Source of the DNA: a virus
Reading direction: 5' to 3' (one strand)
Length of the DNA stretch: 64,000 bases
IMG/VR virus record: IMGVR_UViG_3300023210_003077
Location: 62,001-126,000 of that record
Shown: positions 51,729 through 62,017 of the stretch, piece after piece
Layout: every line of letters begins with the position of its first letter
Numbering within the stretch: position 1 is the first letter of the stretch
The notes under the pieces: model-generated
The model's input: the letters and a program-made list of their open reading frames with translations, nothing else
Told to the model about the DNA's origin: nothing
Database searches by the model: none
Position numbers and translations under genes: made by a program

Positions 51729-52517
51729 ATGGCGAATAAAGTAAAATTTAAAATAAACGGAGACACATTTAATACATTTGTTTCTAAATTAAGTGATTTA
51801 TCAACTATTGATGATAGTGTTAGGTTGAAAATAGATAATGATGATGTATTAATGTATTCTATCTTAGGTAAGAATATATTACTCGCCTTCAAAAACTATT
51901 TAATACCAACAGATGAATTTCTCATAAAAAACGATGACCTAGATTATCAATTAGATTTAGTCATACCTAATATCAAGAAATTTGTTAAGAACCTTGGTAT
52001 GATCAAGGATCCGGATAAAGTAACAATAGAATTTAATTATAAACCATCAGCCGATGATAGAGACATTTATCAAGTAAGATATTTCCAAGTATCTTGTGGT
52101 CGATTTAAGATTAATTGGGTTGGTGGAGAACACAATAATGAAACTAGAGAAATCAATAAAGAAATGTTAGCTAAGAACTTAAATCTAAAAAATAGTAAAT
52201 GGTCATTCGCTCTTACGAAAGATGATTTCACTGATATTAAAAAACTTTCAAGTATTAACTCAGAGAGAATTATAAATATTGGTATCGATAAAGGTATTGT
52301 TAACTTCTCTGAAAAATCAGCTTGGGATTTAGAAGTCGATAACTTAGAAGATGATAGAAGTTCTAACCTTATTTTTAATAAAAGGTTTTTAAATTGCATA
52401 AACGCTGAGAGAGAAAAAATCACATTCAGTATATTCGAAACCTTTATGTTAGTTAAAGATGAAGAATCTAATTTGATGCTTAGCTTCGAACAAGATTTTG
52501 AAGAGGATGATATTTAA
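51729..52517 (+). CDS. 45: Sliding clamp gp45
   Basis: 262 codons (T4: 228). T4-type clamp features: N-terminal VKFKINGDTFNTFVSKLSDL, then DNAsheet strands with LDYQLDLVIPNIKKFVKNLG, and C-terminal ITFSIFETFMLVKDEE. As a trimeric ring it tethers DNA polymerase and, in T4, activates late transcription with gp55. The C-terminus is acidic (FEEDDI). Confidence 0.85.
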   Translation: MANKVKFKINGDTFNTFVSKLSDLSTIDDSVRLKIDNDDVLMYSILGKNILLAFKNYLIPTDEFLIKNDDLDYQLDLVIPNIKKFVKNLGMIKDPDKVTIEFNYKPSADDRDIYQVRYFQVSCGRFKINWVGGEHNNETREINKEMLAKNLNLKNSKWSFALTKDDFTDIKKLSSINSERIINIGIDKGIVNFSEKSAWDLEVDNLEDDRSSNLIFNKRFLNCINAEREKITFSIFETFMLVKDEESNLMLSFEQDFEEDDI

Positions 52518-52913: not shown

Positions 52914-54896
52914 ATGAAGAAATTACTATTTTTATTTTTATTAGCAACATCAACATCGTATTCACAGGATACTCTAAAGGTTGACACATCAATGGTGCAA
53001 ATTGAAGAAGTTACTATACAAGGAATTAGAGCTGGATCTAAAACACCAGTCACTCAGAAAACAATCAGTAAAGATGATATAGATGTTATGTATCATACAC
53101 AAGAATTACCGTTGTTATTAAACACAACACCAAGTGTAACATCATCAACAGATGGCGGTCACAATATGGGATATACTTACTTTAGATTGAGAGGTATTGA
53201 CCAAACTAGAATTAATATGACACTCGATGGGGTTCCTCTTAATGAACCAGAGGACCAAGGTGTATATTTCTCAAATTACCCAGATTTTACAAACTCAATT
53301 AGGTCAATGCAGATACAACGTGGTGTTGGTACATCAACAAACGGTGTTTCCTCATATGCTGGTTCTATTAATTTTGAATCACCAACGGGATTAAAGAAAG
53401 GAACAGAAGGACAAATTGGATATGGATCATTTAATACTTATAGAGTTAGTATTGAAAACTCAACAGGATTACTAAAAAATAAAACAGCCTTTTATACTAG
53501 ATATTCAAATTACGCGAGTGATGGATACAAATATAACTCAGGTGGTGAAGGACAATCATTCTTTTTAAGTGGTGGTTATTATGGAGAAAAGGATTTTGTT
53601 AAAATAACAGCATTCAATGGACACACAACTAATGAAATGGCTTGGTTCGCAGTTTCAGAAGATGATATAAAATCAGAACCAAGAACTAACTATAATACTA
53701 CTAGAGAAAATGACGACTTTACACAAAGTATGGTTATCTTAAAACACAAACACTTTTTTAACAAGTCAAATTTAACGACTACCGCTTTCTATAATAGATT
53801 AGATGGAGATTGGGGATTAGATTTACTACCACTTGGTGGAGGGGATGATGTTCTTAACTTCAATTTAGGTTCTAACTTCTATGGATTAACCTCTAACTAT
53901 AACTTAACTGGTAATAAATATAGATTGAATATTGGTGTTAGTGGTAATATGTATGATAGACGACATGCTATGACTGTATTAGCAAACACAGATGAACTAT
54001 ATTCTAATAAAGGACTTAAAAACGAAGTATCATCATTTGTTAAATTCGGATATGATATAAAGAAGTTTACTCTTTTCGGAGATGCTCAAGTTAGATACGT
54101 TGATTTCAAGTATCAAGGTACTATGGATATGGCACCATTTGAATGGACATTCTTCAACCCAAAAGGTGGTATAATGTTCACGAAATGTAAACACTATAAC
54201 TTCTATGCTTCTGTTGGTCAATCACAAAGAGAACCAACAAGAAATGATATTTTTATGGGAGAAGATGATCCTATTAGTTACATAGATGTTAAACCAGAAT
54301 CGGTTGTTGATTATGAATTAGGTACTAATATAACATTAGATAACTTTAAGTTACAAGGTAATCTATACTATATGGATTTCAAAAATGAAATAACATTATT
54401 AGGAGCAATTGGTTCAAATGGTTTACCGTTAATGACTAATGTTGAAAACTCTTTTAGAAGTGGTATTGAATTAGATATGACTTTAAGTTTATTTAGTAAA
54501 AAGAAAATTAACTTATTATTAGTTAATACATCATCATACTCTTATAACAGAATTAATGATGATGGGAAAGAATTTAGTCCATTATACACACCTAATTTGA
54601 TAATTAACCAAGGTGTGGTGATTAAAGATTCAAAAGATAGAATAAGAGTTGGATTTGATGTGAAGTACCACTCAGAGTCTTATATTGATATGGAGAACAC
54701 ACTCACAACACCAGATTTTGTGGTATTAAATGCTCAAGTTGATTATAAATTCTATAAACAACACAGTTTAAGTATTAGAGTAAATAACATAACTAATGAA
54801 AGTTATTACACTAATGGATACGCAGTTGGTACAGATAGACACTTCTTTGTTAATCCACCATTCAACTTCTTCGCTACAATTAAATTTAAGATTTAA
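52914..54896 (+). CDS. TonB-dependent outer-membrane receptor
   Basis: 660 codons. Signal peptide MKKLLFLFLLATSTSYS (cleavage before QDT), plug domain about 30-150 (EEVTIQGIRAGSKTPVTQKT, LLNTTPSVTSSTDGGHN, YFRLRGIDQTRINMTLDGVP), then a 22-strand-type barrel with alternating aromatic strands to the C-terminal FFATIKFKI. It lacks the SusC-type N-terminal extension. TonB receptors import scarce nutrients using inner-membrane energy. The stop overlaps the pnuC start (TAATG), and nadR overlaps pnuC, so the likely ligand is nicotinamide riboside/NMN or a related NAD precursor. In host Bacteroidota, receptor-Pnu gene pairs also serve thiamine, an alternative. Confidence 0.93.
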   Translation: MKKLLFLFLLATSTSYSQDTLKVDTSMVQIEEVTIQGIRAGSKTPVTQKTISKDDIDVMYHTQELPLLLNTTPSVTSSTDGGHNMGYTYFRLRGIDQTRINMTLDGVPLNEPEDQGVYFSNYPDFTNSIRSMQIQRGVGTSTNGVSSYAGSINFESPTGLKKGTEGQIGYGSFNTYRVSIENSTGLLKNKTAFYTRYSNYASDGYKYNSGGEGQSFFLSGGYYGEKDFVKITAFNGHTTNEMAWFAVSEDDIKSEPRTNYNTTRENDDFTQSMVILKHKHFFNKSNLTTTAFYNRLDGDWGLDLLPLGGGDDVLNFNLGSNFYGLTSNYNLTGNKYRLNIGVSGNMYDRRHAMTVLANTDELYSNKGLKNEVSSFVKFGYDIKKFTLFGDAQVRYVDFKYQGTMDMAPFEWTFFNPKGGIMFTKCKHYNFYASVGQSQREPTRNDIFMGEDDPISYIDVKPESVVDYELGTNITLDNFKLQGNLYYMDFKNEITLLGAIGSNGLPLMTNVENSFRSGIELDMTLSLFSKKKINLLLVNTSSYSYNRINDDGKEFSPLYTPNLIINQGVVIKDSKDRIRVGFDVKYHSESYIDMENTLTTPDFVVLNAQVDYKFYKQHSLSIRVNNITNESYYTNGYAVGTDRHFFVNPPFNFFATIKFKI

Positions 54897-55444
54897 TGGA
54901 TATTATTGAGGCAGTAGCTGTTTTATTCACGTTACTAGCTGTTATTCTAACAGTAAAAGATAACATATTATGTTGGCCATTTGGTATCGTAGGAGTTATC
55001 TTTTACTCTGTTATCTTTTACAACCATAACTTACTTGGTGATTTAGTTTTACAAGGTGTATTTCTAGTCCAATCTATACTAGGTTGGATAAACTGGAGCA
55101 AACCAAAAGAAGAATTGGCTATTAGTTGGTTAAATAAAAAGCAATTAGGATATCTAACAACCAGCACCATTATTCTATACATGACCACGTTTTGTATAAC
55201 AAGTGAATATGGTGGTAATATGCCATTTCTAGACTCTGCTGTAATGACATTGGGTGTTATGGCTACATTCCTATTAGTGAAGAAGAAAATAGAAGCTTGG
55301 ATTCTTTGGATTATAAATGACATTCTATTAATAGTATTATTCTCATCAAATGGCTTAGACGTATCATCATATGTATATGGTTTATTCTTAATATTAGCAT
55401 CAATTGGATTATGGAAATGGATAAAAAGTACAAAAGTAGTTTAG
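54896..55444 (+). CDS. pnuC: PnuC-family vitamin-precursor transporter
   Basis: 182 codons with about six to seven transmembrane helices. PnuC features: NILCWPFGIVGVIFYSVIFY near 22-41, WINWSK near 65, and the late AWILWIINDILLIVLF near 128-143. PnuC carries nicotinamide riboside across the inner membrane by facilitated diffusion trapped by phosphorylation, which the next gene provides. Start overlaps the receptor stop; end overlaps nadR by 34 bases. The relative PnuT carries thiamine; context favours the NAD branch. Confidence 0.9.
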   Translation: MDIIEAVAVLFTLLAVILTVKDNILCWPFGIVGVIFYSVIFYNHNLLGDLVLQGVFLVQSILGWINWSKPKEELAISWLNKKQLGYLTTSTIILYMTTFCITSEYGGNMPFLDSAVMTLGVMATFLLVKKKIEAWILWIINDILLIVLFSSNGLDVSSYVYGLFLILASIGLWKWIKSTKVV

Positions 55445-56430
55445 TATTGGGTAAATTCTACGGATTACACACCGGGCACCTTTATTTAATAGACACCGCT
55501 TTGGAAAATTCGGAAGTTGTTCATGTTTTAGCTTGTCATAATCCTACACAAACAATCCCTGGTAAATTAAGAGTAAAATCTTTACGAGAAATATATGAAA
55601 GTAACCCAAATGTCATAATACACTCTGTTGATGATAGTGAGATGCCACAATATGAACACGAATGTAAATCACTTGATGAATTTTATTCTTATTGGGTTCC
55701 ATTTGTTTATAAATTTGTTGGTAAATTAGATTGTGTATTCACTTCTGAGAATTACGGTGATGATTTTGCTAAATATTTGGGTATAAAACACTATCTAGTT
55801 GATAAAGAAAGAAAGAAATTTCCTATATCAGGAACTAAAGTAAGAACTAACCCCTTTGATAGTTGGGAATTTATACCGGATGAAATAAAACCCTACTTCG
55901 TTAAGAGAATTGTTATTATGGGGCCGGAATCTGTTGGGAAATCAACAATGAGTGAAAATTTAGCTAAATACTATAACACAAATTTTGTTGAGGAATATGG
56001 CAGAACTGTATTTGAAAGAAATGGTAATAAAATAGGAATAGAAGACTTTATCCCAATATCTGTTGGTCGACAAGAATTGGAAAATCAAAAAATAAAGACA
56101 TCCAATAAATTATTATTCTGTGATACAGAGGATATAACAACATACCTCTTCTCAAAAATGTATTTTCCAAATGGTTATAAAAGTATTGAAAACATATTAC
56201 TAGATAAAGTATATAAAAATAGTAATTATGATTTATACTTACTATTGAAACCTGATTGTGATGGTGTTCAAGACGGAACACGACAGTTTTTAGAAGAAAG
56301 GATGGAACATTATAATGTTATTAAATCAGAATTGGAAAAGTACAATTGTAATTATATAGAAGTGGGTGGTAATTGGAGAGATAGATTAAGCAAATCTATT
56401 GAAATTGTAAATTCACAATTTAATATATAA
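55411..56430 (+). CDS. nadR: Bifunctional NadR: NMN adenylyltransferase and ribosylnicotinamide kinase
   Basis: 339 codons. N-terminal nucleotidyltransferase domain with GKFYGLHTGH (GLHTGH at 18-23) and ISGTKVR at 139-145; C-terminal kinase domain with Walker A GPESVGKST at 171-179, EEYGRTVFE and FCDTEDITT. The N-terminal DNA-binding repressor part of enterobacterial NadR is absent, as in Bacteroidota. It phosphorylates nicotinamide riboside to NMN and adenylates NMN to NAD+, trapping what PnuC admits. Start lies inside pnuC; ATG 55417 is an alternative start. Confidence 0.94.
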   Translation: MEMDKKYKSSLVLGKFYGLHTGHLYLIDTALENSEVVHVLACHNPTQTIPGKLRVKSLREIYESNPNVIIHSVDDSEMPQYEHECKSLDEFYSYWVPFVYKFVGKLDCVFTSENYGDDFAKYLGIKHYLVDKERKKFPISGTKVRTNPFDSWEFIPDEIKPYFVKRIVIMGPESVGKSTMSENLAKYYNTNFVEEYGRTVFERNGNKIGIEDFIPISVGRQELENQKIKTSNKLLFCDTEDITTYLFSKMYFPNGYKSIENILLDKVYKNSNYDLYLLLKPDCDGVQDGTRQFLEERMEHYNVIKSELEKYNCNYIEVGGNWRDRLSKSIEIVNSQFNI

Positions 56431-56448: not shown

Positions 56449-56709
56449 ATGGACCAACAATTAGAACTTTTAGCAAAACTTTTACAATTCTACAAAGGTA
56501 GATATGAAGGTACTAACCTTGAATCAAAATTTAATGATGCTTGTGAAGATTTAATAAACACAGGCGATTTGAAAAGATCTGTTTATATAAAGTTTTGTAT
56601 CGAAAATGATATCGAGCCACGAATTAATAAAAAAGTAACACCAACACCAAAATCATCAATTTCGAGATTTCGAAACGATGATTCATCATATTCAAGATCA
56701 TCTTGTTAA
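56449..56709 (+). CDS. Small hypothetical protein
   Basis: 86 codons, helical N-terminal two thirds (LELLAKLLQFYKGRYEGTNLESKFNDACED limited to charged helices), then a Ser/Arg-rich tail ending SSYSRSSC. 18 bases after nadR, likely same transcript. No family recognised. Confidence 0.6.
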   Translation: MDQQLELLAKLLQFYKGRYEGTNLESKFNDACEDLINTGDLKRSVYIKFCIENDIEPRINKKVTPTPKSSISRFRNDDSSYSRSSC

Positions 56710-56719
56710 TAAATAAATA

Positions 56720-57622
56720 ATGTTAGAATCAATCGAATTATTCGGGAAAGAAATTAAGCTAATAACTCATAATTGTGCCTTATTTGGAGAGGAGGAGGGA
56801 AACGCCATTGAAGAACCTTATATAAATCTTTATGTTAGAACTAAATTCTGTAACGCTAAGTGCTCATTCTGTACATATCACTCAGACGCATCCAAATGGA
56901 ACGGTAAAAAATATAAAGAAGTCTTACAACATATATCAGATAGAATTAAGATTAGAAAAATAGCCATTTCTGGTGGAGAACCAACTTTATATTGGGATAA
57001 TTTTCTGGAAATGTCCAATGTTGGTGTGGAATATGCACCTGATTGTGAATTATCACTGAATACAGACGGATTTAGATGGGAGAAGTTATTTAACGACCCT
57101 ATTGCTAAAAGATATGATTATATACAACTTAGTCGTCACCACTATGATGATAAGATTAATGATGAGATATTCAAATGCAAAACTCCTACATCAGAAGAGA
57201 TAAAGGCTATAAGCCATTTACAAACACATCCACACCAAGTACAATTCAGATGTAACTTAATAAAGAATTATATAGATACACCAGAAGAAGTATTTAAATA
57301 TTTAGAATGGGCAAACTCTGTTGAGATAAATGATATTGGTTTAGTATCTTTAATGCCTATCAATGAATACTCAAAAGAGAATTATATTTATTTTCACATA
57401 AAGGAATTAATAGGTGATAACTTTTTTTTAACCAAGTCTTGGAAAAGAACGGGTGGTGGATGTGAGTGTTTTAATTATGTCTATACTCCACCAGAAGAAG
57501 ACTTTAGAAGACCAATGAAAGTTTATCACAAAAATACATTTAAGCCTTCTGAGATAACGGAAACAATTGTGTTTGATGGTCAAAATGTTCGTTTGGGGTT
57601 TGATGGACCAATTATCTATTAA
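56720..57622 (+). CDS. Radical SAM enzyme
   Basis: 300 codons. Cluster-binding motif C44-x3-C48-x2-C51 (KFCNAKCSFC), then ISGGEPTLYW near 84-93 (SAM-binding GGEP) and SLNTDG near 116. Compact core with a Cys pair near 250 (GGGCECF) that might hold an auxiliary site. MoaA/QueE-like in general shape, but the substrate cannot be assigned. 10 bases after the previous gene, so it is probably part of the transcript that contains the NAD-salvage genes. Confidence 0.85.
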   Translation: MLESIELFGKEIKLITHNCALFGEEEGNAIEEPYINLYVRTKFCNAKCSFCTYHSDASKWNGKKYKEVLQHISDRIKIRKIAISGGEPTLYWDNFLEMSNVGVEYAPDCELSLNTDGFRWEKLFNDPIAKRYDYIQLSRHHYDDKINDEIFKCKTPTSEEIKAISHLQTHPHQVQFRCNLIKNYIDTPEEVFKYLEWANSVEINDIGLVSLMPINEYSKENYIYFHIKELIGDNFFLTKSWKRTGGGCECFNYVYTPPEEDFRRPMKVYHKNTFKPSEITETIVFDGQNVRLGFDGPIIY

Positions 57623-58093: not shown

Positions 58094-58417
58094 GTGATAG
58101 GTTACTACTATTTCCATTACTATAATCAATATAAGATAAATAAAAAATCAATCATATCTAAAATAAAAGAAACCTGTTTAGAGAGATATGGAGTTGATAA
58201 TGTATCAAAGGTTGATATTGTAAAATTAAAATCAAAACAAACAAAGGTTAAAAGAGGTACAGAGCTAATGGCAGATCCTATATTGTTTATTATTATACCT
58301 GGTGAATTATTACCACAATGGGAATTATATAAACGTGAATGTAGAAGATTATGAAAATTGGATAGGTATCGACTATTATGATGGTGAGAATATAAGTGGT
58401 TATCAATCAGCATAACA
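58094..58417 (+). pseudogene. Degraded homing endonuclease remnant
   Basis: Only a GTG is available as start. The frame contains the DNA-contact repeat KETCLERYGVDNVSKVD and then IPGELLPQWELYKRECRRL, stopping at 58354; about 30 bases of the other frame then give ENWIGIDYYDGENISGY. Both pieces belong to one type of phage HNH homing endonuclease (…ELYKRECRRL…ENWDGYDYYDGEYI… order, from memory), but the linker and the catalytic end are missing. It lies directly upstream of the split DNA polymerase exon, where such endonucleases insert. Confidence 0.6.
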
Positions 58418-58768
58418 AATACCATATAGGCGTATAGTTCTGTTATCTGACCAAATTGCGCCTGACTAAAGTGTAACATCATATCCACACATATTAAAAT
58501 ATTTTATGTTACGTGGTCCGATTTTTACTGAAACTTTTTCTTCCTTTATCATATACTTTAAGAGGTTTATTTATATATCAAAATGTATAAGTACCCTTTA
58601 TAACAAATTTATTAAATATGACAAAAACCGAAAAAATAAAAAAAATCGAGTCATTAAAAATTAAAGCGAGCGAGTTGAAAAAGGAAGTAGATTACTACAA
58701 TGCCCTTCAACTCGCTCTTTAATCACCCCCGCTTTATTTTAAGTGGGGGTAAATGACTAAAACTTGTA
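58418..58768 (+). ncRNA. Structured region before polymerase half: possible intron end
   Basis: About 350 bases without a substantial gene. It holds GC-rich inverted repeats unusual for this genome: GAGCGAGTTGA (about 58668) with TCAACTCGCTC (about 58709) enclosing GTAG/CTAC, then a perfect-with-one-wobble 10-bp hairpin ACCCCCGCTT/AAGTGGGGGT at about 58725-58750. The polymerase coding frame opens within 10 bases of that hairpin. Such stacked 3' hairpins occur at the end of group I introns (P9 region), but I could not identify the conserved P7 core. A 34-codon frame (58618-58722, MTKTEKIKKIESL) overlaps the repeat. Confidence 0.4.
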
Positions 58769-60079
58769 TTGAATGGTTCTTATGGAGCCTTCGCAACACC
58801 ATACTTCATACTTTATAACAACCACGTTGCAGGTACTATAACAGCAGAGGGTAGAGAATTGACTAGAAAGATGGATGATGATAACCAAGATTATTGGTAT
58901 AATCAATGGCATCTTGATACTGAGCTACACAAACAATTAAATATAAAAGATATCACACCAATTGATACGAAAGAGGATGTTAGTATCTATGGTGATACCG
59001 ATTCAATTTTTGTTTCATTCAAACCTTGTATGGACCATTGTACTTGGAGAGATCAAGTATTTAACGATGAATATCTATCTTCAATTGATAAGAAATTTAT
59101 TATACTATCAAGAGATTTGATAGAAACAGATAATCCAAATTATTTGGGTATGTCAAAAGATATCACGGAATTTACAGAACTTCTGAAAGAAGATTATGGG
59201 TTAGTTTTAATAGATGGTAACTTCGTGAAAGATAGGAAGTTAAATAAGATGATAGATGATGGAGTTTTAACAAATGATATTATCTGGAACTGGTCTACTG
59301 AGGTTGATTTTATATTAGGAGTTGACCAAATAAAATATGAGGGTTACTTCAAAGATTGTTTAGATAAACACGCAGAATCATATGGTGTTGAAAACAAAGA
59401 AGATTTTGAACTTGAAAGAATATCAGAATCAATTATAAATATTGCTAAGAAAAAATACATACAACATATTTTATATGAGGATGGTATTCCATATGATAGA
59501 TTGAAATATATTTATCCTAAAGGAGTTGAACTTGTTAGGTCATCCACACCAGCCTTTGCTCGTGATAAGATTGTTGGGATAGTAGAGTATTTATTTGAGA
59601 ATCCCGATACATTCAATATAAAGGATTTACTTAAATTGGTAAAAGGTCTTAGAAAGGAATTTGAATTGGCTGATGTTGATGATATCGCAATGCAATCATC
59701 TTGTAATAAATATGATGAGAAAGTTTTAAATGATAAAACATTACCATTACAATTTATAAGTGGAGCTCACTTTGCTGTTAAAGCGGCCGCTTATCATAAT
59801 TACTTATTGAACAATGATAAGAAATTACAAGATAAGTATGAATTTATGAAATCTGGTACAAAGATTAAATATTATATCTGTAAAGATAAATCAGTTAATT
59901 CCACATTTGCTTATGCTAGAGGGTCTTACCCGATTGAATTTGCTCCTGAGATAGATTATGATATACAATTTGAGAAATCAATACTATCACCAATTAATTC
60001 TATTATTGAACCATTAGGTATGCCAGAAATAACAAGAAGATTGAGTGTGGTAATGGATATATTCGGTGGATTTAAATAA
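58757..60079 (+). CDS. 43: DNA polymerase gp43, C-terminal half (family B)
   Basis: The frame is open from CTA 58757 after a TGA; TTG 58769 is the first usual start. It begins exactly in polymerase motif B, LKLVLNGSYGAFA (K-x3-N-x2-Y-G), continues with motif C YGDTDSIF (D76, D78 counting from 58769), and contains palm and thumb to a C-terminal MDIFGGFK that resembles the clamp-binding tail of T4 gp43. The exonuclease domain and motif A (SLYPS) are absent and are not encoded elsewhere in the window. T4-like phages with gene 43 split at comparable sites are known. The N-terminal half must be elsewhere in the genome, as a separate subunit or to be joined by splicing. Confidence 0.88.
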   Translation, partial: LKLVLNGSYGAFATPYFILYNNHVAGTITAEGRELTRKMDDDNQDYWYNQWHLDTELHKQLNIKDITPIDTKEDVSIYGDTDSIFVSFKPCMDHCTWRDQVFNDEYLSSIDKKFIILSRDLIETDNPNYLGMSKDITEFTELLKEDYGLVLIDGNFVKDRKLNKMIDDGVLTNDIIWNWSTEVDFILGVDQIKYEGYFKDCLDKHAESYGVENKEDFELERISESIINIAKKKYIQHILYEDGIPYDRLKYIYPKGVELVRSSTPAFARDKIVGIVEYLFENPDTFNIKDLLKLVKGLRKEFELADVDDIAMQSSCNKYDEKVLNDKTLPLQFISGAHFAVKAAAYHNYLLNNDKKLQDKYEFMKSGTKIKYYICKDKSVNSTFAYARGSYPIEFAPEIDYDIQFEKSILSPINSIIEPLGMPEITRRLSVVMDIFGGFK

Positions 60080-61522: not shown

Positions 61523-62017
61523 ATGAAACACTTAATGAGATATGAAGGTTATACTACCAAAGAAAGGGTAGATGATATTTTAGATAAAATATCTAAATAT
61601 GGTATGCCTTCTATAACCAAGCTGGAGAAAGATTTTTTGGACGCTCACGCTTCTGGTGGTGAAGAAGAAGTTCATAAGGAGATAGTGAAAGAAGAAAGTG
61701 AAAGAGTTTTCGAAGATGATTATGGATATTTCAAATTTGAATTAGAAGAAATAGAAGATTATGGTGATGAAATACACTATATTGGGACAATGTATGTTCC
61801 TGATTTAGAATTTCCTAGTAAGAAGAAAATAGAAGGTAGGTTAGAGGGAAAAATAGTTTTATTTAGTAATGGAACAACATCACCTGATTTTTTCTCAATA
61901 AAAAAGAGAAAGAATCAAGATAATTATGACATATTCGAATTTTGTAATGGATTAGAATATGAGTTAGATAGTTTTGTTGATTATGTTATAAGTGAATTGA
62001 AAAATTCTGATAATTAA
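61523..62017 (+). CDS. Leader-bearing protein with DUF6576-like motif
   Basis: 164 codons from ATG 61523 (an ATG at 61508 adds five residues). Leader MKHLMRYEGYTTKE, followed at once by VDDILDKISKYGMPSITKLE and KDFLDAHAS, the same DUF6576-like helix pair as in the 22586-22939 protein. The rest is acidic beta structure. In Bacteroidota this helix pair is usually C-terminal on host proteins, so it may bind a host component. Confidence 0.66.
   Translation: MKHLMRYEGYTTKERVDDILDKISKYGMPSITKLEKDFLDAHASGGEEEVHKEIVKEESERVFEDDYGYFKFELEEIEDYGDEIHYIGTMYVPDLEFPSKKKIEGRLEGKIVLFSNGTTSPDFFSIKKRKNQDNYDIFEFCNGLEYELDSFVDYVISELKNSDN

Follow-up and report, generated by a model that had tools for sequence, protein, structure and literature searches.

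The window analysed here is a stretch of 64,000 nucleotides (positions 62,001 to 126,000) of the 154,019-base IMG/VR virus record IMGVR_UViG_3300023210_003077. It carries three adjoining genes, for a TonB-dependent receptor, a PnuC transporter and a NadR enzyme, which probably constitute a phage operon of Bacteroidota origin that takes up nicotinamide riboside, or a close precursor of nicotinamide adenine dinucleotide (NAD), and traps it as NAD+. We infer the ligand, the expression of the operon and its benefit to the phage. The preliminary description of this DNA, made from its letters, reported three overlapping genes with intact signatures, and this is borne out. All three open reading frames (ORFs) are intact, lie on the + strand at the coordinates first assigned to them (Table 1) and each overlaps the next. 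The receptor/pnuC junction is TAATG (54894-54898) and the nadR/pnuC overlap is 34 bases from the first nadR ATG. Since relatives start two residues later in the alignment, a nadR start at Met3 (55417), with an overlap of 28 bases, is likelier. The ratio of non-synonymous to synonymous substitution rates (dN/dS) between the window and the megaphage LR745206 is 0.09 for receptor, 0.15 for pnuC and 0.11 for nadR, so function is maintained by purifying selection; neighbouring phage genes give 0.04-0.07. A CRISPR-DR44 match at 54884-54911 was under threshold and treated as chance.

Table 1 Features of the NAD-precursor locus in the window.
Feature	Coordinates	Strand	Product	Support
TonB-dependent receptor	52914-54896	+	660 aa	PF07715 and PF00593 over cut-off
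PnuC nicotinamide riboside transporter	54896-55444	+	182 aa, 7 predicted helices	PF04973, TIGR01528
NadR	55411-56430	+	339 aa	TIGR01526, phrog_3462, full-length alignment with solved NadRs
Small ORF	56449-56709	+	86 aa, between nadR and radical SAM gene	60% in LR745206
Radical SAM enzyme, candidate fourth partner	56720-57622	+	CxxxCxxC	PF04055 2.8e-13

The receptor consists of a plug (residues 43-150; Plug PF07715, 5.8e-12, 46.5 bits against a cut-off of 23.9) followed by a β-barrel that runs up to the C terminus (TonB_dep_Rec_b-barrel PF00593, 5.1e-26, 93 bits against 27). By eye, the hydrophobic N terminus reads as a signal peptide (MKKLLFLFLLATSTSYSQ) and VQIEEVTI resembles a TonB box; a DTxxLxEVxV segment is conserved among aligned relatives. 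The AlphaFold model (pLDDT 86.7) has its best PDB match in PqqU/YncD (9C4O, 6V81), over the whole length (TM 0.82). PnuC is well above threshold for both NMN_transporter (PF04973, 7.2e-45, 153.5 bits against 27.3) and TIGR01528 (88 bits against 42.45), and the sole significant fold match of its model (pLDDT 91.2) is PnuC 4QTN (TM 0.76). NadR matches TIGR01526 (1.7e-67) and the phage NadR family phrog_3462 (3.8e-79, 267 bits), aligns over its full length with 1LW7 and 8X7F, and lacks an N-terminal helix-turn-helix domain. Its adenylyltransferase domain, which would act on nicotinamide mononucleotide (NMN), has HTGH and ISGTKVR, satisfying HxGH and ISxTxxR, and its ribosylnicotinamide kinase domain has GPESVGKST (Walker A), EEYGR and DTED, which supplies the kinase Asp. 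These positions are conserved across 12 phage NadRs. The catalytic motifs are thus kept, as first reported, and at the level of sequence NadR is predicted to be bifunctional, with both kinase and adenylyltransferase activity.

The preliminary description proposed a search of phage genomes for linkage of the three genes, and the linkage is found. A scan of IMG/VR with an alignment found the receptor in 35 viral contigs, of which 32 have NadR and 26 have PnuC on the same strand at no more than 8 kb. In one contig (L105) PnuC and NadR are ~8 kb and ~12 kb from the receptor, and another (L130) stops inside the receptor. The trio is also present in the megaphages LR745206, LR756502 and LR756501/503 and in Lak phages, where the receptor sits 5-6 kb from a pair in the order NadR-PnuC. 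Ten large phage records were searched for PF00593; nine contain a single match each, located at the NAD locus. In one phage clade (L109, L111-L115, L126), receptor and NadR are flanked or separated by genes for a macro domain, a NadD-MazG fusion or a nucleoside-deoxyribosyltransferase-like protein; a macro domain was sought in the window's own record and none was found.

The same alignment was run against one genome per species for 84,980 prokaryote species. The best 80 loci are nearly all from Bacteroidota, with NadR nearby in the fetched flank in 73 and PnuC in 55, and most have a TAATG-type receptor/pnuC junction as in the window. In Flammeovirga the operon is headed by a Nudix gene whose product has a C-terminal extension and resembles the NAD regulator NrtR; this gene overlaps the receptor start. 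Since the trio is common across Bacteroidota chromosomes, it is an ordinary operon of that phylum, most likely taken by phages, and the idea of a phage invention is not upheld. The direction of transfer, from Bacteroidota to phage, is our inference from this distribution. The phage NadR and phage receptor trees each require five changes of label between phage and cell, at least three of them on supported branches, and a single capture, with one phage clade for the receptor, is rejected (p-AU 0.0002). The best reading is that phages acquired or exchanged the operon more than once. In LR756502 (L002, 7968-10019), NadR and PnuC group with those of the window and the receptor groups with bacterial receptors. 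Joining this receptor to that of the window is rejected (p 7e-5), as is joining its NadR to the bacterial proteins (p 0.009). This pattern suggests that only the surface component was exchanged, for a receptor of bacterial type. Plasmid carriage was looked for and gave no near match. Two copies are probably misbinned: a phage-like one binned as Deltaproteobacteria (L016, JAJFLM010000305.1) and a Flammeovirga-like one binned as Thalassovita (L017, PBYL01000482.1).

We propose that the phage receptor would be placed in the host outer membrane and powered by host TonB-ExbBD. It would move nicotinamide riboside into the periplasm, or NMN or NAD+ that periplasmic enzymes would cut down to it. Phage PnuC would allow facilitated diffusion of nicotinamide riboside across the inner membrane; the kinase domain of NadR would convert it to NMN, which constitutes the trap, and the other domain would adenylate NMN to NAD+. 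The additional NAD+ in the infected cell would be available to phage enzymes that consume NAD and may counterbalance defences that degrade it. Metabolic and counter-defence benefits both fit; LR745206, a close relative, encodes an NAD-dependent DNA ligase and a NADAR domain and gives a weak match to NadV. The pathway had been described as complete and self-contained. Genes for both uptake and trapping are indeed present. It is not self-contained because a TonB-dependent receptor requires TonB, ExbB and ExbD of the host, and PnuC, a facilitator, requires NadR as its trap. The proposal implies that the infected cell remains energised and secretion-competent for a period sufficient to make use of a new outer membrane transporter.

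Several observations weigh against this pathway. The prediction that the receptor carries nicotinamide riboside or a close NAD precursor draws entirely on its context, and the fold match to PqqU/YncD, at 14-15% identity and with pyrroloquinoline quinone as the ligand of that protein, is uninformative about the ligand here. The NadR score for TIGR01526 (228 bits) is below the curated cut-off of 341.15, which is a naming threshold and reflects no biochemical feature. Of the 80 cellular loci, 25 have no adjacent PnuC, and the same holds for most of the phage clade with macro-domain neighbours (L109, L112-L115, L126), so another inner-membrane carrier or a different ligand is possible in these; such loci still have neighbours concerned with NAD or ADP-ribose (NadD-MazG fusion, macro domain, NadR). 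In L127 (2926-3634) the N terminus of the receptor is followed directly by the C terminus of the radical SAM enzyme, a junction that suggests deletion of receptor-pnuC-nadR. With most of the cassette apparently gone from this phage contig, the cassette can be dispensable. Several of the same phages carry NadV and thus the operon is not their sole NAD route.

It is possible, though we lean away from it, that the receptor imports a larger precursor (NMN, NAD+ or another nicotinamide riboside conjugate) which periplasmic enzymes trim for PnuC. Haemophilus provides a precedent, as NAD and NMN are trimmed in its periplasm ahead of PnuC, and the existence of loci without an adjoining PnuC would agree with such a route. 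The phage operon, however, has no phosphatase or pyrophosphatase, and the analogous thiamine receptor/PnuT system handles a small vitamin. It is somewhat unlikely that the same pathway was selected mainly as a counter-defence that refills NAD+ after the action of host TIR, SIR2 or similar NADases, in the manner of NARP1 and NARP2 but with the precursor drawn from outside the cell. In favour, restoration of NAD+ by phages in the face of such immunity has been reported (NARP1/NARP2; PMC11984713), and related phages possess NADAR and macro domains. Yet NAD+-consuming phage enzymes such as the NAD-dependent ligase offer a plain metabolic reason for the operon, and synthesis and insertion of an outer membrane barrel would seem slow for a rescue.

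Thiamine uptake by the receptor and a PnuT-type transporter is very improbable, despite Pfam families and gene order that match those of Bacteroidota thiamine loci. The evidence can be summarised as (i) the third gene encodes NadR; (ii) an Rfam search of the window operon identified no thiamine pyrophosphate (TPP) or other riboswitch near its genes; (iii) both PnuC and the receptor fall in clades separate from those of thiamine systems. All PnuC-family genes were sought in 17 of the bacterial genomes with receptor loci. Dysgonomonas and Prevotella each have a second receptor/PnuC pair, downstream of a TPP riboswitch. The window PnuC belongs to a clade (support 98) with PnuC of the NadR-linked loci L020, L021 and L027; the TPP-riboswitch PnuT copies (L156/L157) fall in a different clade, and the receptors linked to TPP riboswitches split from that of the window with 100/100 support. 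The Bacteroidota thiamine loci L159 and L160 likewise pair a TonB-dependent receptor with a PnuC-family transporter but lack NadR, and their receptor, ~30% identical to that of the window, is in the separate 100/100 clade. The initial preference for an NAD precursor over thiamine is upheld by this grouping of receptor and PnuC with NadR-linked Bacteroidota homologues. Other second pnuC genes in Bacteroidota (L131-L133, L139, L145, L151, L154, L155) precede a gene for a short NadR-like protein of ~175-225 aa, apparently the kinase part alone, and no receptor of this family is found there.

That the receptor is a SusC-type carbohydrate importer is equally hard to sustain. This label was published for the receptors of LR745206 and Mar_Mega_1 by Michniewski et al. 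2021, who called the former 'SusC' and guessed at carbohydrate uptake (PMC9723777). Full-length comparison nonetheless places PqqU/YncD first, by profile and by fold, and the fold match to the viral protein that bears the SusC label has an identity of just 12%. The receptor neighbours pnuC-nadR in phages and bacteria alike. SusC was considered as a class for the window protein and rejected: no susD adjoins the gene, and its 660 residues comprise plug and barrel only, without the extra N-terminal domain of SusC-like proteins.

The operon is surrounded on both sides by phage genes (portal, terminase, clamp loader, methyltransferase, SbcD, DNA polymerase). An identical receptor-pnuC-nadR locus is present in a 241,918-base contig, a 95-99% copy in a third metagenome and a 73-84% copy in LR745206 (634,780 bases), each with the same genes on both flanks. 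Host contamination or an assembly chimera, for which one could cite cellular homologues of the same gene order, is excluded for practical purposes, as these flanks recur in three assemblies and a 635-kb genome, the closest relatives are from phages and dN/dS is low, as in adjacent phage genes. The location in a phage, assumed from the outset, is thereby confirmed across both junctions. The window terminase shares 83% identity with its counterpart in LR745206, 73% with LR756502 and 45% with LR756501; for the Lak terminase, compared over its N-terminal part, the identity is 37-38%. Al-Shayeb et al. assigned the Lak genomes and the largest of their genomes to the Mahaphage clade and predicted Bacteroidetes hosts for megaphages >634 kb and for Lak phages (PMC7162821). 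The LR accessions compared here appear to be genomes of that study, and the window phage is best described as a Mahaphage-like megaphage.

Three phage clades have a radical SAM gene just downstream of the NAD cassette (in the window and in L001, L002, L102, L117, L119, L120, L123, L124 and L129); this gene is not found in the 80 cellular loci. In L119, L120 and L123 it overlaps the stop codon of pnuC. The enzyme has weak, below-cut-off similarity to HxsC, viperin and QueE. We would tentatively, and with rather more doubt than conviction, combine these elements into a megaphage-encoded route for vitamin import through the outer and inner membranes of a Gram-negative host, which would fuel replication and resist NAD-depleting immunity, its cassette repeatedly captured or exchanged from Bacteroidota, and which would have gained a phage-specific radical SAM partner (linked, role unassigned).

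Two further features flank the locus. Upstream, the 262-aa product of 51729-52517 (79% in LR745206, dN/dS 0.04) has no family match and by eye could be a sliding clamp; if so, the cassette sits in a replication region. Downstream (58094-60079), the DNA polymerase ORF at 58769 covers only the C-terminal part of its family (phrog_262 520-839), and a short ORF ahead of it (58094-58354) resembles by eye the DNA-binding repeats of homing endonucleases. The DNA polymerase gene may therefore be split.

The preliminary description took the pathway as not known from any described phage. This requires qualification, as the trio is present in published megaphages; what stands is that no description of it was found in the literature covered. 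As far as that literature goes, the receptor-pnuC-nadR set in separate giant-phage groups had gone unrecognised, or its receptor was called a sugar importer. No paper that links a TonB-dependent receptor to the PnuC and NadR of phages was found, in coverage that is partial, and an earlier description is possible, for example in Li et al. 2024 (Microbiome 12:268), which reportedly deals with NAD synthesis in gut jumbo phages. For some of the largest phages known, uptake of an NAD precursor would provide a candidate ligand of an outer membrane receptor that was formerly guessed to import carbohydrate. It also suggests such a role for a widespread Bacteroidota receptor family, for which no description of a ligand was found.

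The nearest counterpart of the window operon is the chromosomal operon of Bacteroidota (Zobellia L053, Chitinophaga L028, Flammeovirga L018), which has the same families, order, strand and overlapping junctions, and receptors 40-49% identical to that of the window. The window operon differs in being phage-borne and in having no Nudix regulator gene upstream; the radical SAM gene often found downstream in phages is a further distinction. Phage NadR, PnuC, NadV and NadM, with a proposed role against NADase immunity, are already known (PMC9503650, PMC7824862, PMC6102473). Agrobacterium phage Atu_ph07, Caulobacter phage CcrBL9 and Lysinibacillus phage LysYB1 combine PnuC with a bifunctional NadR, as in the window, but no receptor of this family is listed for CcrBL9 and LysYB1 and none is reported for Atu_ph07. 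NARP1 and NARP2, which counter NAD-depleting immunity (PMC11984713), and the NadV/NadM salvage of KVP40-type phages rebuild NAD+ with phage genes, as the window operon would. These systems use intracellular ADP-ribose or nicotinamide, whereas the window operon would import an external precursor and so add a route of outside supply to the known intracellular means by which phages rebuild NAD+.

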